From: a virus
Virus record (IMG/VR): IMGVR_UViG_3300037296_000261
Location: 1-37,712 of that record
DNA length: 37,712 bases
Strand: one strand, 5' to 3'
Program-made: the position numbers and the translations under genes
Notes under the pieces: generated by a model
Seen by the model: only the letters and a program-made list of their open reading frames with translations
The model's database searches: none
Told to the model about the DNA's origin: nothing
Part shown: positions 6,135-37,630 of the stretch, piece by piece
How positions within the stretch are numbered: the first letter of the stretch is position 1
Layout: each line of letters starts with the position of its first letter

Positions 6135-6584
6135 ATGACAAATGAAAATTTAACACCTAAAAAATGGATAGGCAAGAAAAAAGAAGGTGAAATATATCGC
6201 TTTCAATTATTCCTATCTGAAAAAAATATAAATCCTGAGCAAATACAAAAGGATACAGGTGTGACTGTGCGCACTGTGACAAACAGTATTTATGAAGGAA
6301 AACCACTTGGTGCGAAATTATTACGTGAATTAAACGCGAAATATGGAGTTTCTATTGATTGGTTAGTAAGCGGAAAAGGGCAAATGTTTGTCGATACGCC
6401 TGTTTCTCACCTCGAAATTTCTGTACCGCGCTCTGATTATACAAATGATGACCCTCGTTTTAATCGAATCGTTGGTCTCGTTCAGGAATTCATGGCAAAT
6501 GCTGATGAAGATGAGAAGGCGTGGTTAGAGACTCAGATGAAGTTCAATATTGCTCAGTTCAAGCAATTTTTGAATGATAAATAA
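6135..6584 (+). CDS. CI-like phage repressor (HTH, no peptidase)
   Basis: The start at 6135 gives 149 aa beginning MTNENLTPKKWIGKKKEGE, with AAGGGG seven bases upstream. A longer in-frame reading from 6051 runs across the divergent gene and lacks a ribosome site. The N-terminal part resembles the phage CI/Bacteriophage CI-repressor HTH: FLSEKNINPEQIQKDTGVTV, then SIYEGKPLGAKLLRELNAKY and the characteristic GVSIDWLVSGKG. Residues about 100-149 are acidic and helical and probably form an oligomerisation domain. There is no S24 LexA-like peptidase domain, so induction through RecA-driven self-cleavage is unlikely. Inactivation by an antirepressor (2126-2686) is the more likely route. Confidence 0.85.
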   Translation: MTNENLTPKKWIGKKKEGEIYRFQLFLSEKNINPEQIQKDTGVTVRTVTNSIYEGKPLGAKLLRELNAKYGVSIDWLVSGKGQMFVDTPVSHLEISVPRSDYTNDDPRFNRIVGLVQEFMANADEDEKAWLETQMKFNIAQFKQFLNDK

Positions 6585-30549: not shown

Positions 30550-30804
30550 ATGCGAGTCATTTGTCCACACTGCTACAGTAAAGCCTTGATCACGTCGTCG
30601 AACGTATTGTGTGAGACAGTGAAAGACTTGTATTGCCAATGTACCAACACCAAAGACTGTGGCGCCAGCTTTGTTTACAAGCTGAGCCATTCCCACGATC
30701 TAAACCCACCTCGACAAACTACCGTACAAATTGCCAGCGCCCTAATAAAAAGCCTGCCCCTCGAAGAAAGGCAGGCTCTGCAGCGCGATATGTTTGCTAG
30801 TTAA
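30550..30804 (+). CDS. ogr: Ogr/Delta-type zinc-finger late gene activator
   Basis: This 84-aa protein matches the Ogr/Delta family: MRVICPHCYSKALITSS with C5 and C8, then YCQCTNTKDCGASFVY with C31 and C37 forming the zinc site. In P2, Ogr turns on the four late promoters and contacts the RNA polymerase alpha subunit. Here it would act on the divergent O/P region. The 3' end overlaps the convergent gene by 4 nt and contains that gene's terminator. It lies beside the C4-like RNA-controlled operon, which may link immunity to late activation. Confidence 0.9.
   Translation: MRVICPHCYSKALITSSNVLCETVKDLYCQCTNTKDCGASFVYKLSHSHDLNPPRQTTVQIASALIKSLPLEERQALQRDMFAS
30747..30777 (-). terminator. Terminator of the RNA-controlled operon, inside ogr
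   Basis: On the minus strand AGCCTGCC (30777-30770) pairs perfectly with GGCAGGCT (30758-30751), followed by TTTTATT. It lies within the 3' coding end of ogr and 24 bp after the stop of the 30801-31088 gene. Its stem is GC-rich, so it should work well. Confidence 0.75.
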
Positions 30805-31088
30805 TGGCGTTCTTTATCGCTTGCATCTAACGCCGCGATGATCTTCCTTTGAGTCGACAATAAGCTGTATTCCACGCACTTCAACAAGCTACCAATCTGT
30901 TCGCCTGTTACACCTATATCGTCATCAATGGCATGGGCCGCCATCATTCCAAGCCCATCCAACGCATCGATCCCAAACGACATGTGGTGCATTTGGCGCT
31001 TAATCTCGTCGGAGGTGGTCATGTCCAAATTAACGCGGTCAAATTCCACGTCACCAGCCTCAATAGCATTATTGTTTGAATTATCCAT
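30801..31088 (-). CDS. Small acidic phage protein, second gene of RNA-controlled operon
   Basis: The start at 31088 (MDNSNNNAIEAGDVEFDRVN) has GAGGAG six bases upstream and gives 95 aa. A longer frame to 31157 overlaps the preceding gene. The protein is acidic, with two helical parts (SDEIKRQMHHMSFGIDALDG and GSLLKCVEYSLLSTQRKIIA). It starts 8 nt before the end of the 128-aa gene, so translation is coupled. It ends convergent with ogr (stops share four bases) and a terminator follows. I recognise no family. Similar small acidic genes occur near ogr in P2-like phages. Confidence 0.7.
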   Translation of the reverse strand: MDNSNNNAIEAGDVEFDRVNLDMTTSDEIKRQMHHMSFGIDALDGLGMMAAHAIDDDIGVTGEQIGSLLKCVEYSLLSTQRKIIAALDASDKERH

Positions 31089-31467
31089 GCTGTACTCCTC
31101 GCACGTTGTTAAATCCATTATTAGACACGATATGGCTAGCGCGTTGGCGGCTATCACCTTGTATTAACAGGGTTTTAAACCGAGGGTTAATCATTTGACC
31201 AGCGGAATCAATATCGTAATGGAACCAAACAGGAGCGTTGATCAGGTCGGGCAATAGGGTTGTGAGCTGTTGTGTTTGTCGGTCGGATAAACCGCCTAAG
31301 TGAAATGTCGTGCCATTGGCTAAGCGAACCAACAAAGGGTCTGCATCGTGCAGGTTAACCGCGACAATATGGCCAAGGCCAACTTGTGGAGAGGGTAAAG
31401 CGGAAAAGGTGCCGTTGGACGGAAAAAGGGCGTGGTGGTGCAGTGAACGAACAATAGCGTTATTCAT
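31081..31467 (-). CDS. Target gene of the C4-like RNA, unknown function
   Basis: This 128-aa protein (MNNAIVRSLHHHALFPSNGT) has no motif that I recognise. The central part HIVAVNLHDADPLLVRLANG and LPDLINAPVWFHYDIDSAGQ has a beta/alpha pattern. The leader directly before its ATG (TCAAAGAGA at 31485-31477, then AACCT) is complementary to the loop of the C4-like RNA upstream, and this leader also holds the only ribosome-site-like purines. By analogy with P1 c4/ant, the product would be something the prophage must keep silent, such as an antirepressor or lytic switch protein. That role is inferred from the control only. Confidence 0.7.
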   Translation of the reverse strand: MNNAIVRSLHHHALFPSNGTFSALPSPQVGLGHIVAVNLHDADPLLVRLANGTTFHLGGLSDRQTQQLTTLLPDLINAPVWFHYDIDSAGQMINPRFKTLLIQGDSRQRASHIVSNNGFNNVRGVQHG

Positions 31468-31485
31468 AGGTTTAAATCTCTTTGA
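31468..31485 (-). promoter_or_regulatory. Antisense target in the leader of the 128-aa gene
   Basis: TCAAAGAGA (31485-31477) is the exact reverse complement of TCTCTTTGA in the C4-like RNA loop (31561-31553). After a 4-nt bulge, AACCT (31472-31468) pairs with AGGTT at 31565-31561, which overlaps the first pairing by one base. Pairing would cover the purine-rich ribosome site nine bases before the ATG. Confidence 0.7.
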
Positions 31486-31504
31486 AAGAAGTTAAACCAC
31501 TACT

Positions 31505-31520
31505 CATGCTTCCAAACATG
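31505..31520 (-). promoter_or_regulatory. seqC-like hairpin, loop TTTGGAAG
   Basis: CATG (31520-31517) and CATG (31508-31505) enclose the loop TTTGGAAG (31516-31509). The same eight-base loop occurs at 31671-31664. Both are complementary over seven bases to CTTCCAA of the C4-like RNA (31547-31541). This is the geometry of seqA/seqB/seqC in phage P4 immunity. Confidence 0.7.
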
Positions 31521-31523
31521 GGT

Positions 31524-31597
31524 GGTGGCTGCGCACAGGGTTGGAAGACCAGTCAAAGAGAACCTGGTAGGCCGAAGCCTCCCCACGCACAGCCACC
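31524..31597 (-). ncRNA. C4/P4-CI-like antisense immunity RNA
   Basis: The minus-strand RNA closes with a 17-bp stem (31597-31581 with 31540-31524; four G-U wobbles). Inside are a hairpin AGGC-UUCG-GCCU (31580-31569) and a second hairpin ACCAG/CTGGT (31568-31564 with 31552-31548) with an 11-nt loop, then single-stranded CTTCCAA (31547-31541). The UUCG tetraloop fixes the strand. The fold agrees with the C4 antisense RNA of P1/P7 and the CI RNA of P4. CTTCCAA is complementary to the loops at 31509-31516 and 31664-31671. The 11-nt loop is complementary to the leader of the next gene. It likely keeps the operon 31467-30801 silent in the lysogen. Confidence 0.88.
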
Positions 31598-31618
31598 ATA
31601 ACGCAAGCATTATGGCAC

Positions 31619-31636
31619 AAAAAAACCGCAACGCGG
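31619..31636 (-). terminator. Attenuator-like hairpin upstream of the C4-like RNA
   Basis: On the minus strand CCGC-GTT-GCGG (31636-31626) is followed by seven T (31625-31619). The stem has only four base pairs but is all G-C. It lies between the leader promoter and the RNA core and may be an attenuator or a processing point. Confidence 0.5.
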
Positions 31637-31659
31637 CGGTATGTGCGTCTCAATGAATC

Positions 31660-31675
31660 AGGGCTTCCAAACCCT
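31660..31675 (-). promoter_or_regulatory. seqA-like hairpin, loop TTTGGAAG
   Basis: AGGG (31675-31672) and CCCT (31663-31660) enclose the loop TTTGGAAG (31671-31664), identical to that of the hairpin at 31505-31520. It lies upstream of the C4-like RNA in the same transcript, matching the position of seqA in P4. Confidence 0.7.
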
Positions 31676-31702
31676 CATGTTAGATTTTGCCAACACCCGT
31701 AA

Positions 31703-31762
31703 ACCATAGGATGGTAGGAAAAAGAAGTCAATAAAAATGTTTTCAAATAGGGGCAAATGAAA
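31703..31762 (-). promoter_or_regulatory. Promoter of the C4-like RNA operon with upstream conserved block
   Basis: TTGACT (31731-31726) and TATGGT (31708-31703) with a 17-bp spacer form a promoter on the minus strand. Upstream of it (31762-31732) is a block with TTCATTTG and ATTTGAAAACATTTTTA, which recurs almost unchanged at 35112-35140 in front of another operon. The block is likely a regulator site. Confidence 0.65.
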
Positions 31763-31805: not shown

Positions 31806-32180
31806 ATGGCATCAGGGTTTCAAGATATATCAGACATACTGCAGAGGTGTGAAACAGCAGAGGTTCGTGACTTCATTACTTCTATGCGAGAAATAATATC
31901 TAATCTTCGAGAGGAAAATTCTGAGTTAAAGGATGAGGTAAAAGCTCTCAAGGTAACTTTAGAAGATAATACTAAGCTTAAATATGAAGATCCTTTTTAT
32001 TGGATGATAGAAGGTGATAATAAAGATGGGCCGTTTTGTCCGCAGTGTTTTGATAGCTCCGGAAAAAAAATCAGGTTACAAACCACCTATAAGGATGGTT
32101 GGTGGAATTGTACAAACTGCAAAAATAATTTTGGCCTCAAACATGCGCAATCTAGAGACACATTATCTTTTAGTGATTGA
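31806..32180 (+). CDS. Coiled-coil zinc-ribbon accessory protein
   Basis: This 124-aa protein starts with a coiled coil (about 24-57: FITSMREIISNLREENSELK and following) and ends with a zinc ribbon (C78, C81, C102, C105 in PFCPQCFDSSGKK and WWNCTNCKNNF). GAGGGAG precedes the ATG at a workable distance. Similar short coiled-coil plus CxxC-CxxC proteins are widespread in bacteria and mobile elements and have no firm function. It is the first of three plus-strand genes (to 33520) with short gaps (18 and 17 bp), read divergently from the C4-like RNA promoter. It may bind nucleic acid or dimerise via the coiled coil. Confidence 0.75.
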   Translation: MASGFQDISDILQRCETAEVRDFITSMREIISNLREENSELKDEVKALKVTLEDNTKLKYEDPFYWMIEGDNKDGPFCPQCFDSSGKKIRLQTTYKDGWWNCTNCKNNFGLKHAQSRDTLSFSD

Positions 32181-32198
32181 TTTTAAAGGGATTGTTAA

Positions 32199-32723
32199 AT
32201 GAATATAGATCAAAAGTACTTATCGAATCTTCTTAAGCCACTAGAGAATGAGAGTGTTCTTACTTTAAATGAATACCTAGCTGAAATTGAAAGTTTAGGC
32301 GTCGTAGTAAGCGATGACAATAAGAAGCCAACTGAAATGTTTGATATTCATTTGAATTATATGAGTGCAAAAAAAATGATTTCAAACATGGCAGGTCAAA
32401 GTGATCTAAAGTCGTTAGGCTTTCGATCTACTTTGTCAGGATCGTTATTAGTTGTTGGAAATATGAAAATCATGAAAGTGGAAAAAGATGAAGTGCCTTC
32501 AAATAGTACTATTAATTTCAATGCGCCAGTAACCAATCAGCAAGCCCAATTTGGTAACGGAAATACTCAGAACGTCACCATCAACATGCAAGAACTCGTC
32601 GAAAAAGTAGCAGCTTCCGGCGATAAAGAAGCGAAAGGGATACTAATGAAACTCCTTGAAAATCCAACGATTAGCGGTGTGATTGGTGCGAGTGTGACAG
32701 GGTTGATTGGGATGTTGGGATAA
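32199..32723 (+). CDS. Accessory protein with N/Q-rich segment and glycine-zipper end
   Basis: This 174-aa protein has a helical N-terminal domain (about 1-90). A beta-prone N/Q-rich stretch at about 103-130 (INFNAPVTNQQAQFGNGNTQ, then NVTINM) resembles bacterial amyloid or RHIM-like signalling motifs. A helix (VEKVAASGDKEAKGILMKLL) and a hydrophobic glycine-spaced end (G160, G163, G168, G171) follow and could insert in a membrane. The start has AAGGG seven bases upstream. It is the middle gene of the 31806-33520 set. The motif combination is suggestive of a signalling or pore-forming effector, but this is inference from composition. Confidence 0.65.
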   Translation: MNIDQKYLSNLLKPLENESVLTLNEYLAEIESLGVVVSDDNKKPTEMFDIHLNYMSAKKMISNMAGQSDLKSLGFRSTLSGSLLVVGNMKIMKVEKDEVPSNSTINFNAPVTNQQAQFGNGNTQNVTINMQELVEKVAASGDKEAKGILMKLLENPTISGVIGASVTGLIGMLG

Positions 32724-32740
32724 GTAGATTAAGGAATGAA

Positions 32741-33520
32741 ATGAGACCCAAAAGCTTTTATAAATATTGTCCGATTTATAGTGATGACTTTGAAAATGAA
32801 CGATCAATAGAAAACCTAATTAATAGTCATGCAGTATTCTCTAATAGAAAAAATTTTAATGACTTGTTCGACTCAAAGATAAACTTCATCAAGCCCACTA
32901 AAGAAAAGCTTAAAGTTTTGGCAAAAAATATGAGTGCTAAAAATAGGTTTAATTTCAAAATAGTCTTTCTAGAAGACGATTGGAGGAGTAAGTGCCAGTC
33001 GGTTGAAGATGAAGTTTCTAAGGTATTTGATAAGTACCTATATTACTGCTTAACTGATCAGCCTGATAATAATTTAATGTGGTCTCACTATGCAAACTCC
33101 CACAGAGGTTTTTGTATCGAATGGGGCTCTGAATATATTAATGCAGATAAAGTTAAATATTCTGATGATATAGCAAGTTTTGATATATTTGATGTTGTTA
33201 AATCTAATTATGGTTTACCTGTTGCCGACACAGCTGGTGATCAAATATGGAGGGCATTGAGGCAGAAATTAAAAGAATGGGAATATGAGTCTGAATATAG
33301 GCTTCAATTAAGCAACGAAGCGATGAAAATCAACACAGTAAAGCAGTTTGATAATTTCTCTCTTGTGAAGTACGAGTCTGGATGGGTCAAATCTATCATT
33401 TTTGGTTGCCGAATGTCTGAAGAAGCGAAAGATTATATACGAAAAAACCTTCCGTTCAATGTCTCTTTTAAACAAGCCCAAGAGGGTGTTTCTAGTATCA
33501 AGATAAAAGATATAAATTGA
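32741..33520 (+). CDS. DUF2971 family protein
   Basis: This 259-aa protein matches DUF2971: it begins MRPKSFYKYCPIYSDDFENE, then AVFSNRKNFNDLFDSKINF (family pattern l.fs.p..FNDpfD), YYCLTDQPDNNLMWSHYANS and HRGFCIEWGSEYINADKV, all hallmark segments of the family. The ribosome site AAGGA is five bases before the ATG. The molecular function of the family is not established to my knowledge. DUF2971 genes are often found in accessory and mobile regions. It is the last gene of a three-gene set and is convergent with a HEPN-like gene, 11 bp apart. Confidence 0.85.
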   Translation: MRPKSFYKYCPIYSDDFENERSIENLINSHAVFSNRKNFNDLFDSKINFIKPTKEKLKVLAKNMSAKNRFNFKIVFLEDDWRSKCQSVEDEVSKVFDKYLYYCLTDQPDNNLMWSHYANSHRGFCIEWGSEYINADKVKYSDDIASFDIFDVVKSNYGLPVADTAGDQIWRALRQKLKEWEYESEYRLQLSNEAMKINTVKQFDNFSLVKYESGWVKSIIFGCRMSEEAKDYIRKNLPFNVSFKQAQEGVSSIKIKDIN

Positions 33521-33531
33521 TTGCTAAATGA

Positions 33532-34377
33532 CTATTTTAATGGAGGAAATGGACCTTTATATTCCCAGTCCTTTAATAAGTCTATTTTTTTAATTTTTAG
33601 GTCTGTATCTAATGCTTCTATAGGGACTAAATATATTACTTCATTTATATCGAAAATAAAGTCTATATTTTTATATTCATGTGATACCTTGTTGTTATAA
33701 GTTATTTCTATTACATTATTATTTGATTTGTGCTCAAAGTTTGTGGTGATAACTCTATGACTTAAACCTATTTTTAATCCGTCAGATGGTTTTTTTAATG
33801 ATCCTTCGAATTCATCAGAAAAATCTATTATTCCATCGAGAAAGATACTGTAGATAGATCTCATCATTCCAATAAAATAGTTCCCGCTTCCCAGATCACC
33901 TTTTGTAAATATAATTAGAGCTAGATAAAAATAATTCAATGAGTCTAATTTTATGATTGTGCGAAATTCTCTCTTATGAAAGGTGTAATTCACCTTAATC
34001 CTATCGTCTTTAATTTCAAATGAAGACGGACTGTGTATCAGTGCATTTCGTAATATCTTAGAAAATCGAAATAATTCTCGAAGTATTATTTCTTCATCAA
34101 TTTCAGAAGGAAGGTTTGTGTATTTTTTTGAAAATGAACAGCCTTCTAATTCTGGATTTTTTGTATCGATATATAAATCTAATATTGAAAATAAAATAAT
34201 AAACTTCATTTTTAGATTGTCTTCAATACTTACTCTATTACCCATTCTACCGATGAATCCCATATTGATGTCTGTTATGCCGTTATCAGAAGGATTTTCG
34301 TGCTGAATTCTTGGATATCTTATAGGCATACCCATGTCTTCTAACATCATGATAGTGTGATTAATAAATGAATTCAT
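33532..34377 (-). CDS. HEPN-like accessory protein, possible RNase
   Basis: This 281-aa protein is strongly AT-rich in coding and predicted helical in its first half. The segment ELFRFSKILRNALIHSPSSF carries R110-NALI-H115, the Rx4H pattern of HEPN ribonuclease domains, preceded by a long helical stretch (KMKFIILFSILDLYIDTKN), as in HEPN four-helix bundles. The C-terminal half (about 150-281) is beta-rich, with ITYNNKVSHEYKNIDFIFDI. Its ATG overlaps the end of a 29-codon frame in an ATGA and has GGGAA upstream. HEPN proteins often act in toxin or abortive-infection systems; here the enzyme activity is inferred from a short motif only. Confidence 0.6.
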   Translation of the reverse strand: MNSFINHTIMMLEDMGMPIRYPRIQHENPSDNGITDINMGFIGRMGNRVSIEDNLKMKFIILFSILDLYIDTKNPELEGCSFSKKYTNLPSEIDEEIILRELFRFSKILRNALIHSPSSFEIKDDRIKVNYTFHKREFRTIIKLDSLNYFYLALIIFTKGDLGSGNYFIGMMRSIYSIFLDGIIDFSDEFEGSLKKPSDGLKIGLSHRVITTNFEHKSNNNVIEITYNNKVSHEYKNIDFIFDINEVIYLVPIEALDTDLKIKKIDLLKDWEYKGPFPPLK

Positions 34378-34463
34378 ATAGCTTCCCAGTCGTAGCTCTC
34401 TTTTTTAACCGCCTCGTCAGCGATCTCACAGCGAATGTCAGACCTGCTTTTTCTTTGCTTCAA
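34374..34463 (-). CDS. Possible 29-aa linker peptide gene (TTG start)
   Basis: A TTG at 34463 overlaps the stop of the membrane-protein gene (TTGA), and the frame ends in a TGA that overlaps the ATG of the HEPN-like gene (ATGA). The 29 residues begin MKQRKSRSDIRCEIADEAV and end in KKESYDWEAI. There is no good ribosome site. The chained overlaps argue that it is translated, or that it is the remnant of a once longer membrane protein now read in another frame. It could be a small antitoxin-like partner of the HEPN-like protein. Existence as a protein is uncertain. Confidence 0.35.
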   Translation of the reverse strand: MKQRKSRSDIRCEIADEAVKKESYDWEAI

Positions 34464-34984
34464 TCAACAGGCTTTTCTATAGGCTCTGCTTTTTTTTCAT
34501 GAGAAGTTACCTGTGAATACTGAGGGATCATCTCTGATGTAACGGCTTCTAGTTTTTCTTTATTAATGTGTTTTATCGAATCATCTGTACTAGAGTCCTT
34601 CACCCAGTTTCGAGCTTCAAACATGCAATTAAAAGCGCACCAAGCTCCAGCAACATATAGCCACTTTCCATCGAGTAGGGCTTGAACTCCAAAGACAAAA
34701 ATGAGACATAAAAAAGATGCGATGATGAAACGAGAAGCAATTAAAAGCGCTATCGATGAGCCATAACTTGCCAACTGAATGTTTTTAGAGCGAACATAAT
34801 GTTTGTGTAAAATGTGTTTTTGTATTTCTAATGTTATGTATGAATCCAAAAAAGTAGAACTGCTTGTCTTCGCTTTTTTAAACACTTTTTGTACTAGCCA
34901 GGATGATAACGAGAATACAGCTGCCCCTAAAAGAGATTGATAAAATGGATTGAGTTGAATAATCCAGTCAAGAATAAAGTTCAT
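34460..34984 (-). CDS. Membrane protein of the HEPN-like operon
   Basis: This 174-aa protein has membrane segments at about 15-34 (YQSLLGAAVFSLSSWLVQKV), 73-103 (SYGSSIALLIASRFIIASFL and following, possibly two) and 108-124. It has a polar, lysine- and glutamate-rich C-terminal tail (about 130-174). The ATG at 34984 has AAAGGG with six bases to the start. It is the first larger gene of an operon with the HEPN-like gene. Membrane proteins paired with HEPN or other effectors are common in exclusion systems; the function here is not known. The ATG overlaps an 18-codon leader frame in an ATGA. Confidence 0.65.
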   Translation of the reverse strand: MNFILDWIIQLNPFYQSLLGAAVFSLSSWLVQKVFKKAKTSSSTFLDSYITLEIQKHILHKHYVRSKNIQLASYGSSIALLIASRFIIASFLCLIFVFGVQALLDGKWLYVAGAWCAFNCMFEARNWVKDSSTDDSIKHINKEKLEAVTSEMIPQYSQVTSHEKKAEPIEKPVD

Positions 34985-35037
34985 CTTACGCCCTTTGATC
35001 CATAAGTTTTATCGTCTTGAACGTGCTTGAAGTGCAT
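34981..35037 (-). CDS. Possible 18-aa leader peptide
   Basis: An ATG at 35037 has AAGG seven bases upstream, and the frame MHFKHVQDDKTYGSKGVR ends in a TGA overlapping the next ATG (ATGA). Another tiny frame (11 codons from 35044, MTDALQARSRR) starts directly after the antisense target. Either could serve as a leader whose translation is coupled to the membrane-protein gene, so that RNA pairing at 35051-35059 affects the whole operon. Confidence 0.4.
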   Translation of the reverse strand: MHFKHVQDDKTYGSKGVR

Positions 35038-35041
35038 CAGT

Positions 35042-35141
35042 CATCCTTAGTCTCTTTGAAGAGGTTGTCGCGGTTTACCAATCTTAACCGTATTTGCCGG
35101 CTTTTAGTCAATAAAATGTTTTCAAATGATGACAAATGAAC
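35042..35141 (-). promoter_or_regulatory. Second leader: conserved promoter block plus antisense target
   Basis: On the minus strand, a block (35140-35106) repeats that at 31762-31726: TTCATTTG, then ATTTGAAAACATTTTA and TTGACT. A -10 TTAAGA (35087-35082; 18-bp spacer) is plausible. Downstream, TCAAAGAGA (35059-35051) is the same nine-base target of the C4-like RNA loop as at 31485-31477, again 6-9 bases before an ATG. No copy of the C4-like RNA itself is present here. Confidence 0.65.
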
Positions 35142-35330
35142 CATTATAAATGCAGTAAAAGAGTGTATGAAGTTTTTCTGAAGTGACTCACTTTAGCCAA
35201 AAAAAAATTTATGCATGGCTTCTGTGGTGGTTTTTTATGCAGTGGCTAACCCTAACTTAAGGCAGATAAAGCTGTATTAAATAAAGAGATTTTTGATTAA
35301 TTCTCTTTATTATAAACATAAGGATATAAT
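35142..35330. promoter_or_regulatory. Upstream region of the two-gene module, with 10-bp inverted repeat
   Basis: No gene is seen. AATAAAGAGA (35280-35289) and TCTCTTTATT (35302-35311) form a perfect inverted repeat with a 12-nt loop, 19 bp before the GTG start at 35331. A smaller palindrome AAGTGACTCACTT lies at 35181-35193. The first could be an operator or a leader hairpin of the two-gene module. Confidence 0.55.
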
Positions 35331-36356
35331 GTGAAATTTACAAAAAAACTTGAGTTTGGGAATTACACCCTTAATTTTGGTTCCGAAAAGGTTTTACTTG
35401 ATTTATTTGAAGATATAGTAATGCCTTCATTTGAAGAAAAAAGATATAAAAGAATAATACAGGGTAAAAGTGATTATTTTTTTATTGATACGAAATTAGT
35501 GGTGTTGGATGAAAATGCTAAAGAACCTGTTTTAGGTATTTCTGGGAAAATAATAAAGAACTCAAAATTGAAAAGAGATCAGGTATACAGAGATGATGAG
35601 GGTATTGTTGAAGATATTGATGAACTTGAAACTGCTCCAAGTTCAGTTTTCTTATTGATTCTTAATACGCATAGACTTGTTTTTTGTAAGGAGGTACAAG
35701 GTGCACCAACTATTCAAAATTTCAAAACTACTAGTGAAAATTTTTTAAAGAAAAGATATAAAGAGTTTATAAGAGAAAAGTTTGATGATAATAAAATCAA
35801 AAAAACCATTCTTCCTGGTCAAAAGCGAATAACACTAAAGAGTCTTGTAGAAGAAACACCTCCTCCTGTTTTACGAATAACCACGTTATCTGATGAAAAA
35901 TCGCTTAAAACTTTTATCAATATGCTCAAGACTATAGATAGAGTTTCTATCAAGCTACTACAGACTAATAATGAAGAGTTAGATAACGATGATTTTTGGA
36001 CTGATGCTGAGAAAATCAAGGAAGAAATGAATAGTGATGCTGTGAAAGTTGAATTTTCTAATTTTAAAGATGGCTTAGACAAAGAAAGAGTTTTTCAACA
36101 AACTAATTTAGCATCTTCTCTTGCAAATTCGGAAATAAAAATGAGAGGCTATGATAATCAAGGCGATACTATTAAAGGGAGTCATGATGATTTTAGTTTA
36201 ACATTGGAATTGGAAGAGCTTCCAAAAAATGCAGAAACAGCGTCTAAAATACAGTATAATCAATTTATGCACTTGGTTAATAATGGAATTGTGAAAATTC
36301 CAAAGCTAGCAGAATCTACAATTAAAAAAATCATAAGAATATTCGGAATAAAATGA
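35331..36356 (+). CDS. Soluble protein of a two-gene accessory module
   Basis: This 341-aa protein starts at GTG with AGGA six bases upstream; the overlapping ATG at 35329 is followed directly by a stop. It is lysine- and glutamate-rich and has no membrane segment. Recognisable segments are SSVFLLILNTHRLVFCKEVQ, then GAPTIQNFKTTSENFLKKRY, suggesting an alpha/beta core, and a long helical C-terminal half (VSIKLLQTNNEELDNDDFW and following). The codon use is far more AT-rich than that of the tail genes. It is followed by a four-TM protein gene one base later. I do not recognise the family with confidence. A cytosolic effector or sensor next to a membrane partner is a frequent layout of phage-defence pairs. 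Confidence 0.65.
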   Translation: MKFTKKLEFGNYTLNFGSEKVLLDLFEDIVMPSFEEKRYKRIIQGKSDYFFIDTKLVVLDENAKEPVLGISGKIIKNSKLKRDQVYRDDEGIVEDIDELETAPSSVFLLILNTHRLVFCKEVQGAPTIQNFKTTSENFLKKRYKEFIREKFDDNKIKKTILPGQKRITLKSLVEETPPPVLRITTLSDEKSLKTFINMLKTIDRVSIKLLQTNNEELDNDDFWTDAEKIKEEMNSDAVKVEFSNFKDGLDKERVFQQTNLASSLANSEIKMRGYDNQGDTIKGSHDDFSLTLELEELPKNAETASKIQYNQFMHLVNNGIVKIPKLAESTIKKIIRIFGIK

Positions 36357-36357
36357 A

Positions 36358-36987
36358 ATGTCATATGAATTTGAAGGGTCTGAATTAACAAAAGAAAAAT
36401 CACTATGGGAAATTTATAAGCTCTCTAGAAGTATTCGTCCTAATAAATTTCAGTTTTTTATAGTTTCTATTTCTATAGTTCTTTTGACTGTAAATGCTTT
36501 TGTTTTGAACGTTAATACTTCTGATCTACTATCTGATGTTAGGTTGTGGGCAGATAAAGGATTTGATTTTTCTATTACCACTCTTGGTTTTTTGATTGCG
36601 GGATTTGCAATTTTTTCAACATTGTCCAAGCCAGAAATGTTACTAAAAATGATGGCACACAAAAATAAAGCAACAAATCTTCCAACATTAAAATATAATT
36701 TTTTTGTTTTTATGAAGGTTTTTATTTTTTATATATTTTACTCAGTCGTTTATCTTTCAATTATACTTTTTGGGCAGAAAGGTGGCTTTTTTGGAAACTT
36801 TATTAACCTTTTACCAGAGTCGCATTGTATTAAAATAGTTTTGATAAAAATCTCTTACGTTGTGGTTGGTGGTAGTTTTGTTTATCTTCTTTTTTTATTG
36901 AAATCTTTCGTCTTTAATATTTACGCTATAGTGATGACCTTTTTAAGATGGGAGCACTTGAATAGAGATCAAAACAATTTAGAGTGA
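36358..36987 (+). CDS. Four-TM membrane protein of a two-gene accessory module
   Basis: This 209-aa protein has membrane segments at about 31-50 (FQFFIVSISIVLLTVNAFVL), 70-90 (FSITTLGFLIAGFAIFSTLS), 114-138 (NFFVFMKVFIFYIFYSVVYL) and 158-195. The polar loop between the second and third (KPEMLLKMMAHKNKATNLPT) is probably cytosolic. It starts one base after the TGA of the upstream gene and has no good ribosome site, so its translation is most likely coupled. Strong AT bias and position near attR mark it as cargo. The GFLIAGFAIFSTL segment occurs, to my recollection, in uncharacterised membrane proteins of accessory regions. Function is unknown. Confidence 0.65.
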   Translation: MSYEFEGSELTKEKSLWEIYKLSRSIRPNKFQFFIVSISIVLLTVNAFVLNVNTSDLLSDVRLWADKGFDFSITTLGFLIAGFAIFSTLSKPEMLLKMMAHKNKATNLPTLKYNFFVFMKVFIFYIFYSVVYLSIILFGQKGGFFGNFINLLPESHCIKIVLIKISYVVVGGSFVYLLFLLKSFVFNIYAIVMTFLRWEHLNRDQNNLE

Positions 36988-37067
36988 TATGCAAGGTTAA
37001 ATTTTCATTTAGCGGATGGATAGTATCGCTCTCTAGGCTTTTTTTCTTTATTAGTTTTTGAGGGAAG

Positions 37068-37340
37068 TTATTTATGAATAGCCTGTTTAGCTAATATCGT
37101 GCCGCGTCCATTTGTGAATTGAACAAAGGCATGCATTAGTTGGTTTGTATGTGGCTGTTCTATTACTGGAGTAAGTGGGATAAGGGCATTGGCTATTTTG
37201 CCAAAGGTTTCTAGGTCGACACCAAAGCGTTCTTTAAGCGGTGTGTCATAATCTTCCCCGTTATCGATCAGTGCGTCTGCTTGGTCTGGCGTGAGTCCGA
37301 GGGCTTGTTCTGCGAGTAGTTGTATCTCGACTGTGTTCAT
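37068..37340 (-). CDS. Small acidic phage protein near attR
   Basis: This 90-aa protein starts at an ATG with AAGGA upstream and lies alone between the two-gene module and attR, read towards the inside. MNTVEIQLLAEQALGLTPDQ, ADALIDNGEDYDTPLKERFG and VDLETFGKIANALIPLTPVI form a helical acidic protein. I recall similar small proteins in P2-like prophages but no function. Its base composition resembles the phage core more than the neighbouring cargo, so it is likely an ancestral early gene. It is read alone and not with other genes. Confidence 0.65.
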   Translation of the reverse strand: MNTVEIQLLAEQALGLTPDQADALIDNGEDYDTPLKERFGVDLETFGKIANALIPLTPVIEQPHTNQLMHAFVQFTNGRGTILAKQAIHK

Positions 37341-37536: not shown

Positions 37537-37630
37537 ATTGAAAATCCTCGTGTCGGCGGTTCGATTCCGTCTCTGGGCACCATGTTTAAAGAAAACCTGC
37601 TTTTATAGCAGGTTTTTTTTTGCCTAAAAT
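37537..37630. repeat. attR: right att repeat with 3' tRNA-Phe fragment
   Basis: Positions 37537-37582 repeat the tRNA-Phe from the anticodon loop to CCA, and 37583-37630 repeat the terminator and following bases of attL, with one mismatch (T37585). The fragment has no 5' half and no promoter, so it is not a functional tRNA. The 82 bases after it are host DNA in which I see no gene. Confidence 0.95.

Follow-up and report, generated by a model that had tools for sequence, protein, structure and literature searches.

A P1/P7-type C4 antisense RNA locus upstream of a two-gene operon in a P2/HP1-like prophage, and the covariation of its pairing words across Marinomonas

The C4 antisense RNA of phages P1 and P7, for which Citron and Schuster (1990) is reportedly the reference, acts within an immunity locus. 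In the annotated P1 record the promoters are followed by a1, b1, c4, a2, b2, icd and ant1, the last two of which share 4 nt; the a′ segment of C4 (CTGTCAA) pairs with both a1 and a2, while the b′ segment (TCACTAAC) pairs with both b1 and b2. The CI RNA of satellite P4 is also a processed RNA that pairs, through seqB, with sites on both its sides (seqA and seqC). From the literature as cited in a study of Gifsy-1, P4 appears to use one pairing word and transcription termination (PMC4825925). The same study likens the Gifsy-1 isrK locus to P4 SeqA/CI, with IsrK compared to SeqA, and describes STnc1160 as a stable RNA of the region; a text search of that paper returned no phrase naming P1 or C4. 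By RNA-seq, STnc1160 and IsrK are highly transcribed in lysogens (PMC7067206).

The DNA analysed here (the window, WIN below) is the whole 37,712-bp virus record IMGVR_UViG_3300037296_000261. The original prediction had called its prophage HP1-like, and a P2-family capsid, a gpP-type terminase, a DUF2586 protein and an Ogr late-gene activator uphold a P2/HP1-like assignment. Part of a tRNA gene near position 154 is repeated at 37537, marking the two attachment sites. A comparison of the window with known phages gave no DNA-similarity match. In gene content the window is related to a Marinomonas genome and to virus records, which makes Marinomonas the probable host. The interval between the C4 locus and the right attachment site (31806-37000) is partly exchanged among relatives, with other genes in G003, G004 and L002, and resembles a cargo hotspot.

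With P1/P7 the window shares the C4 fold, the UUCG hairpin AGGCTTCGGCCT and the order promoter-a1-b1-C4-a2-b2-ORF-overlapping ORF (Table 1). It differs in its pairing words and in belonging to a P2/HP1-like phage with ogr. Where the P1 operon encodes Icd and Ant, that of the window encodes ORF1 and ORF2, which have no detectable similarity to Ant-type families. In contrast to P4, with its single word and termination, the window C4 pairs through two words and would mask a ribosome-binding site.

Table 1. Features of the C4 locus and associated genes in the window, by position
Feature	Coordinates	Strand	Remarks
Prophage protein repressor, presumed target of relief	6135..6584	+	phage repressors matched in PHROG, weakly (best E 4e-6)
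Ogr/Delta late-gene activator	30550..30804	+	PF04606, E 8.5e-13; convergent with the ORF1-ORF2 operon
ORF2, 95 aa, predicted helical hairpin, candidate antirepressor	30801..31088	-	ATG overlaps ORF1 stop
ORF1, 128 aa, start region predicted to be masked by C4	31081..31467	-	in no known family
b2 target TCAAAGAGA, over ORF1 Shine-Dalgarno region	31477..31485	-	9-nt complement of b′
a2 target TTTGGAAG, hairpin loop	31509..31516	-	complement of a′; covaries
C4 antisense RNA	31518..31603	-	RF01695 67.9 bits, E 2.8e-11; fold z -4.1
a′ segment CTTCCAA, unpaired, between apical hairpin and closing stem	31541..31547	-	7-nt complement of a1, a2
b′ segment TCTCTTTGA, within the 11-nt apical loop of C4	31553..31561	-	9-nt complement of b2
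Leader RNA, isrK / c4-a1b1 type	31619..31696	-	Rfam isrK and c4-a1b1, both below curated cut-offs
Intrinsic terminator, leader/C4 boundary	31625..31640	-	
b1 target TCATTGAGA	31648..31656	-	7/9 complementary to b′
a1 target TTTGGAAG, hairpin loop	31664..31671	-	complement of a′; covaries across loci
Sigma-70-like promoter TTGACT-17-TATGGT, serving whole locus	31703..31731	-	9/12 matches

Running the Rfam C4 model on the minus strand, the check that had been proposed for this locus, gave a significant match at 31603-31518 that covers the model end to end (1-87/87) and scores well above the gathering threshold of 45 bits. Judged by its sequence, this RNA is a C4 antisense RNA, a type already known from P1/P7. 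Its minimum free energy is -42.3 kcal/mol, and none of 200 shuffles folded equally well. The fold contains the predicted UUCG hairpin and second hairpin, the latter with an 11-nt loop (31563-31553), and a closing stem that comes to 18 computed pairs rather than the 17 bp first given. We also aligned 18 C4 RNAs; covariation within the stems is already scored by the Rfam model.

Perfect complements are found in the window for a′/a1, a′/a2 and b′/b2, and the weaker b1/b′ match is better in relatives. The original coordinates were right for CTTCCAA and the two identical loops complementary to it, and equally for the 9-nt pairing of TCTCTTTGA in the apical loop (31561-31553) with TCAAAGAGA (31485-31477) ahead of the start codon at 31467. 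A proposed extension of five further pairs after a bulge did not hold up, as it draws on nucleotides of the apical stem and, on visual inspection, is not conserved in relatives. Nor do the pairings divide into one of P4 style and one of P1 style: both belong to the classical P1 set, in which a′ pairs with a1/a2 and b′ with b1/b2, and because the annotated P1 record holds both, the window layout is simply that of P1/P7. The b1 site, the intrinsic terminator and the promoter-like site had all been overlooked. The b2 site lies 9 nt ahead of the ORF1 ATG and, when paired, masks the region of its ribosome-binding site.

To compare pairing words across loci, we searched 49 genomes from the genus that includes Marinomonas shanghaiensis; 22 of them have C4 above the cut-off, with 50 matches in 23 genomes and up to six C4 loci in a single genome. 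These 50 and five loci from virus records (that of the window and four in three further records) make up the 55 loci compared. Each C4 segment was set against the targets of its own locus and of all the others, and the longest perfect complement was measured in every case. Complements of at least 7 nt were found in 95% of cognate against 7% of non-cognate pairs for a′/a2, 87% against 9% for a′/a1, 84% against 10% for b′/b2, and 25% against 4% for b′/b1. When C4s were re-paired 20,000 times with the targets of other loci, the observed complementarity sums were never reached; this control ignores the relatedness of the loci and therefore does not yield an exact p-value. With segments delimited by length and ORF starts set by rule, and with loci related, these figures should be read as strong contrasts and not as exact probabilities. 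The excess of cognate pairing bears out the antisense pairing first proposed between the window C4 and the leader of the operon starting at 31467.

Pairing words thus differ between the 55 loci yet remain complementary to their own targets, and within the group to which the window belongs they change as sets. The best-match strings number 24 for a′ and 36 for b′, including a few short ones from mismatched loci. No two loci in the same genome share both words, though identical pairs are rare overall and avoidance of shared words is not claimed. At G024:C1:2012989, G044:C1:2119153, G013:C1:633286 and G022:C65:97172 and 35066, at least one word is mismatched to its target; these loci are likely decayed or recombined. 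A C4 variant at 5736-5990 of L098 (about 9.2-9.7 kb in G003) has no UUCG hairpin and is missed by Rfam, and keeps all four pairings.

Upstream of C4, the promoter-like site is weak taken alone, since shuffles are expected to give 0.9 sites with 9/12 matches; by eye, its position and hexamers are alike in relatives. At permissive thresholds the leader matches isrK (RF01394) with 49.6 bits (E 1.1e-9), narrowly missing the gathering threshold of 50, and c4-a1b1 at 31656-31709 with 35.0 bits (E 3.8e-7; gathering 46.7). The string TTTGAAAACATTT, upstream of the C4 promoter, was considered as a shared repressor operator and rejected, being absent near the repressor gene, where the repeats are dissimilar. 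It has a second exact copy at 35114-35126 on the minus strand, intergenic among the cargo genes, a count no higher than chance.

The same order of matches is found in Phage Gifsy-1 (NC_010392), where isrK scores 79.3, C4 69.0 and c4-a1b1 48.1 bits. Here the isrK-orf45 region (34131-34316, minus strand) appears as a complete C4 locus, with the full C4 match standing between isrK and anrP and orf45 starting inside C4. Counting from 34316, an ATG within the C4 match has its A at position 107, in agreement with the published first AUG of orf45, and the published compensatory pairing mutants G28/C162 and G31/C159 map to a1 and a′. Gifsy-1 is an experimental precedent for the promoter-leader-C4-operon layout, differing in its downstream gene, the antirepressor-like anrP in place of ORF1-ORF2. 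In our own reading IsrK would serve as a decoy for C4 in Gifsy-1. Co-expression of STnc1160 made growth arrest stronger (PMC4825925), which is not what a simple decoy reading predicts.

ORF2 begins with an ATG at 31088, before ORF1 has ended (stop at 31081), a leader/effector overlap arranged for translational coupling, which we infer for this pair. Neither protein found a convincing family, and no recognisable Ant protein emerged, in Pfam, PHROG or NCBIfam, where searches with loosened limits turned up nothing but hits that were implausible or no better than chance. A search of the ORF2 protein against phages also gave no match. The structure model of ORF2 consists of two helices (pLDDT 77), with nothing at E below 0.001 among solved and viral folds, as expected for a simple hairpin; the ORF1 model is poor (pLDDT 63). 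Homologues of ORF1 exist among the relatives of the window. In L096, however, ORF1 is cut down to about 27 codons, its stop still overlapping the ORF2 start, and in G003 at 331 an ORF2 relative comes directly after C4 without ORF1, so that the constant element is ORF2 rather than ORF1. KilA-N, Rha and AntA are the usual antirepressor domains, and most other Marinomonas C4 loci, read by eye, precede KilA-N-, Rha- or AntA-like genes. Near 9.2 kb in G003 an ORF2 relative stands between an isrK match (52 bits, above the cut-off) and a KilA-N gene, and in L098 Pfam confirms the KilA-N domain of the gene after the ORF2 relative. Distant ORF2-like genes in L102-L105 have no C4 match; those at 1498-1713 in L102 and 2721-2921 in L103 encode 66-71-aa relatives beside a 90-aa gene resembling window 37068-37340.

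The coexisting protein repressor that had been placed at 6135-6584 is supported by its PHROG matches and has orthologues in G003 and G004. Repressor type divides six phages into two sets, WIN/G003/G004 and G002/L094/L096. Identity of the ORF2 core is 93-100% within the former, 83-95% within the latter and 66-72% between them. The G002 phage has an ORF2 core that is 83% like those of L094/L096 vs 71-72% like those of WIN/G003/G004, while its portal is 88-89% like those of WIN/G003/G004 (87-91% among themselves) and 81-83% like those of L094/L096. ORF2 type in these six phages thus tracks repressor type and not the portal, which fits an antirepressor having to match its own repressor. In the G002/L094/L096 type the repressor and the C4 locus are close, so linkage may explain their co-inheritance. 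Since ORF2 is kept, ORF1 is reduced or absent in two relatives and ORF2 type follows repressor type, ORF2 is our candidate antirepressor.

Very probably, then, a C4 switch of P1/P7 type silences the ORF1-ORF2 operon. A single promoter would transcribe the minus strand of the whole locus, with much of the RNA stopping at the terminator to give a short IsrK-like leader bearing a1 and b1, and the read-through RNA would be processed to C4, as P1 and Gifsy-1 suggest. C4 would then pair through a′ with a2 and, covering the ORF1 ribosome-binding site, through b′ with b2; the covariation speaks for the pairing itself, and silencing would be its consequence. With ORF1 untranslated, ORF2 would not be reached, its start overlapping the ORF1 stop. 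In a cell that does not contain this C4, as on infection, both would be translated, and the a1/b1 leader may be a decoy for C4. It is unlikely that C4 acts mainly as in P4, with a1 or a2 pairing causing premature termination of operon transcription rather than a translation block, even though a1/b1 and C4 are separated by an intrinsic terminator, a′/a1 complementarity of at least 7 nt is maintained in most loci, and IsrK has been compared to P4 SeqA (PMC4825925). The Rfam match is to C4, and in 45 of the 46 loci with at least 7-nt pairing b2 stops 5-11 nt short of the start codon, overlapping a Shine-Dalgarno-like string, a placement that would be needless for pure termination and therefore favours blocked translation, as in P1. 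That the window C4 is a decayed relic is most improbable: clearly mismatched loci do occur in the genus (e.g. G044:2119153, G022:35066), but in the window all three main pairings are perfect and the ORFs open, and relatives at about 50-90% protein identity retain the arrangement with altered words.

What the operon does is a separate matter. ORF2 most likely plays the part that Ant has in P1, countering the protein repressor of the prophage, and we regard this step by itself as slightly favoured; it rests on position and analogy, since ORF1 and ORF2 have no convincing family and ORF2 no significant fold match. A lesser yet appreciable chance goes to a real RNA switch that controls an Icd-like inhibitor of host growth, a host-takeover gene or another early function. 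This alternative concerns the last step only and is compatible with the C4 switch. It would agree with ORF1 and ORF2 matching no Ant domain and with P1 C4 also controlling icd, whose annotation is that of a cell-division inhibitor; the ORF2 relative of L098 precedes a KilA-N gene, so ORF2 could hold the place of Icd. In the window and its closest relatives, however, no Ant-like gene follows ORF2, so that an Icd-only operon would leave C4 without an immunity role, and the tracking of repressor type by ORF2 also argues against it.

There are wider implications for P2-family phages. Although we put it at not quite an even chance, the C4 of these phages may control small antirepressors of a new, helical-hairpin class (ORF2), with immunity type set by two short, freely varying RNA words among coexisting prophages of the same genus, and IsrK-type leaders, that of Gifsy-1 included, acting as C4 decoys. 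The studied Gifsy-1 IsrK/orf45 system is suggested to be a C4 locus, and if so its data would allow an alternative reading, in which IsrK in trans activates anrP by titrating C4. For P2-type phages, ORF2 would add a new family of candidate antirepressors, and the Marinomonas set, with about two dozen a′ and three dozen b′ words, makes C4 specificity, heteroimmunity and prophage coexistence testable.
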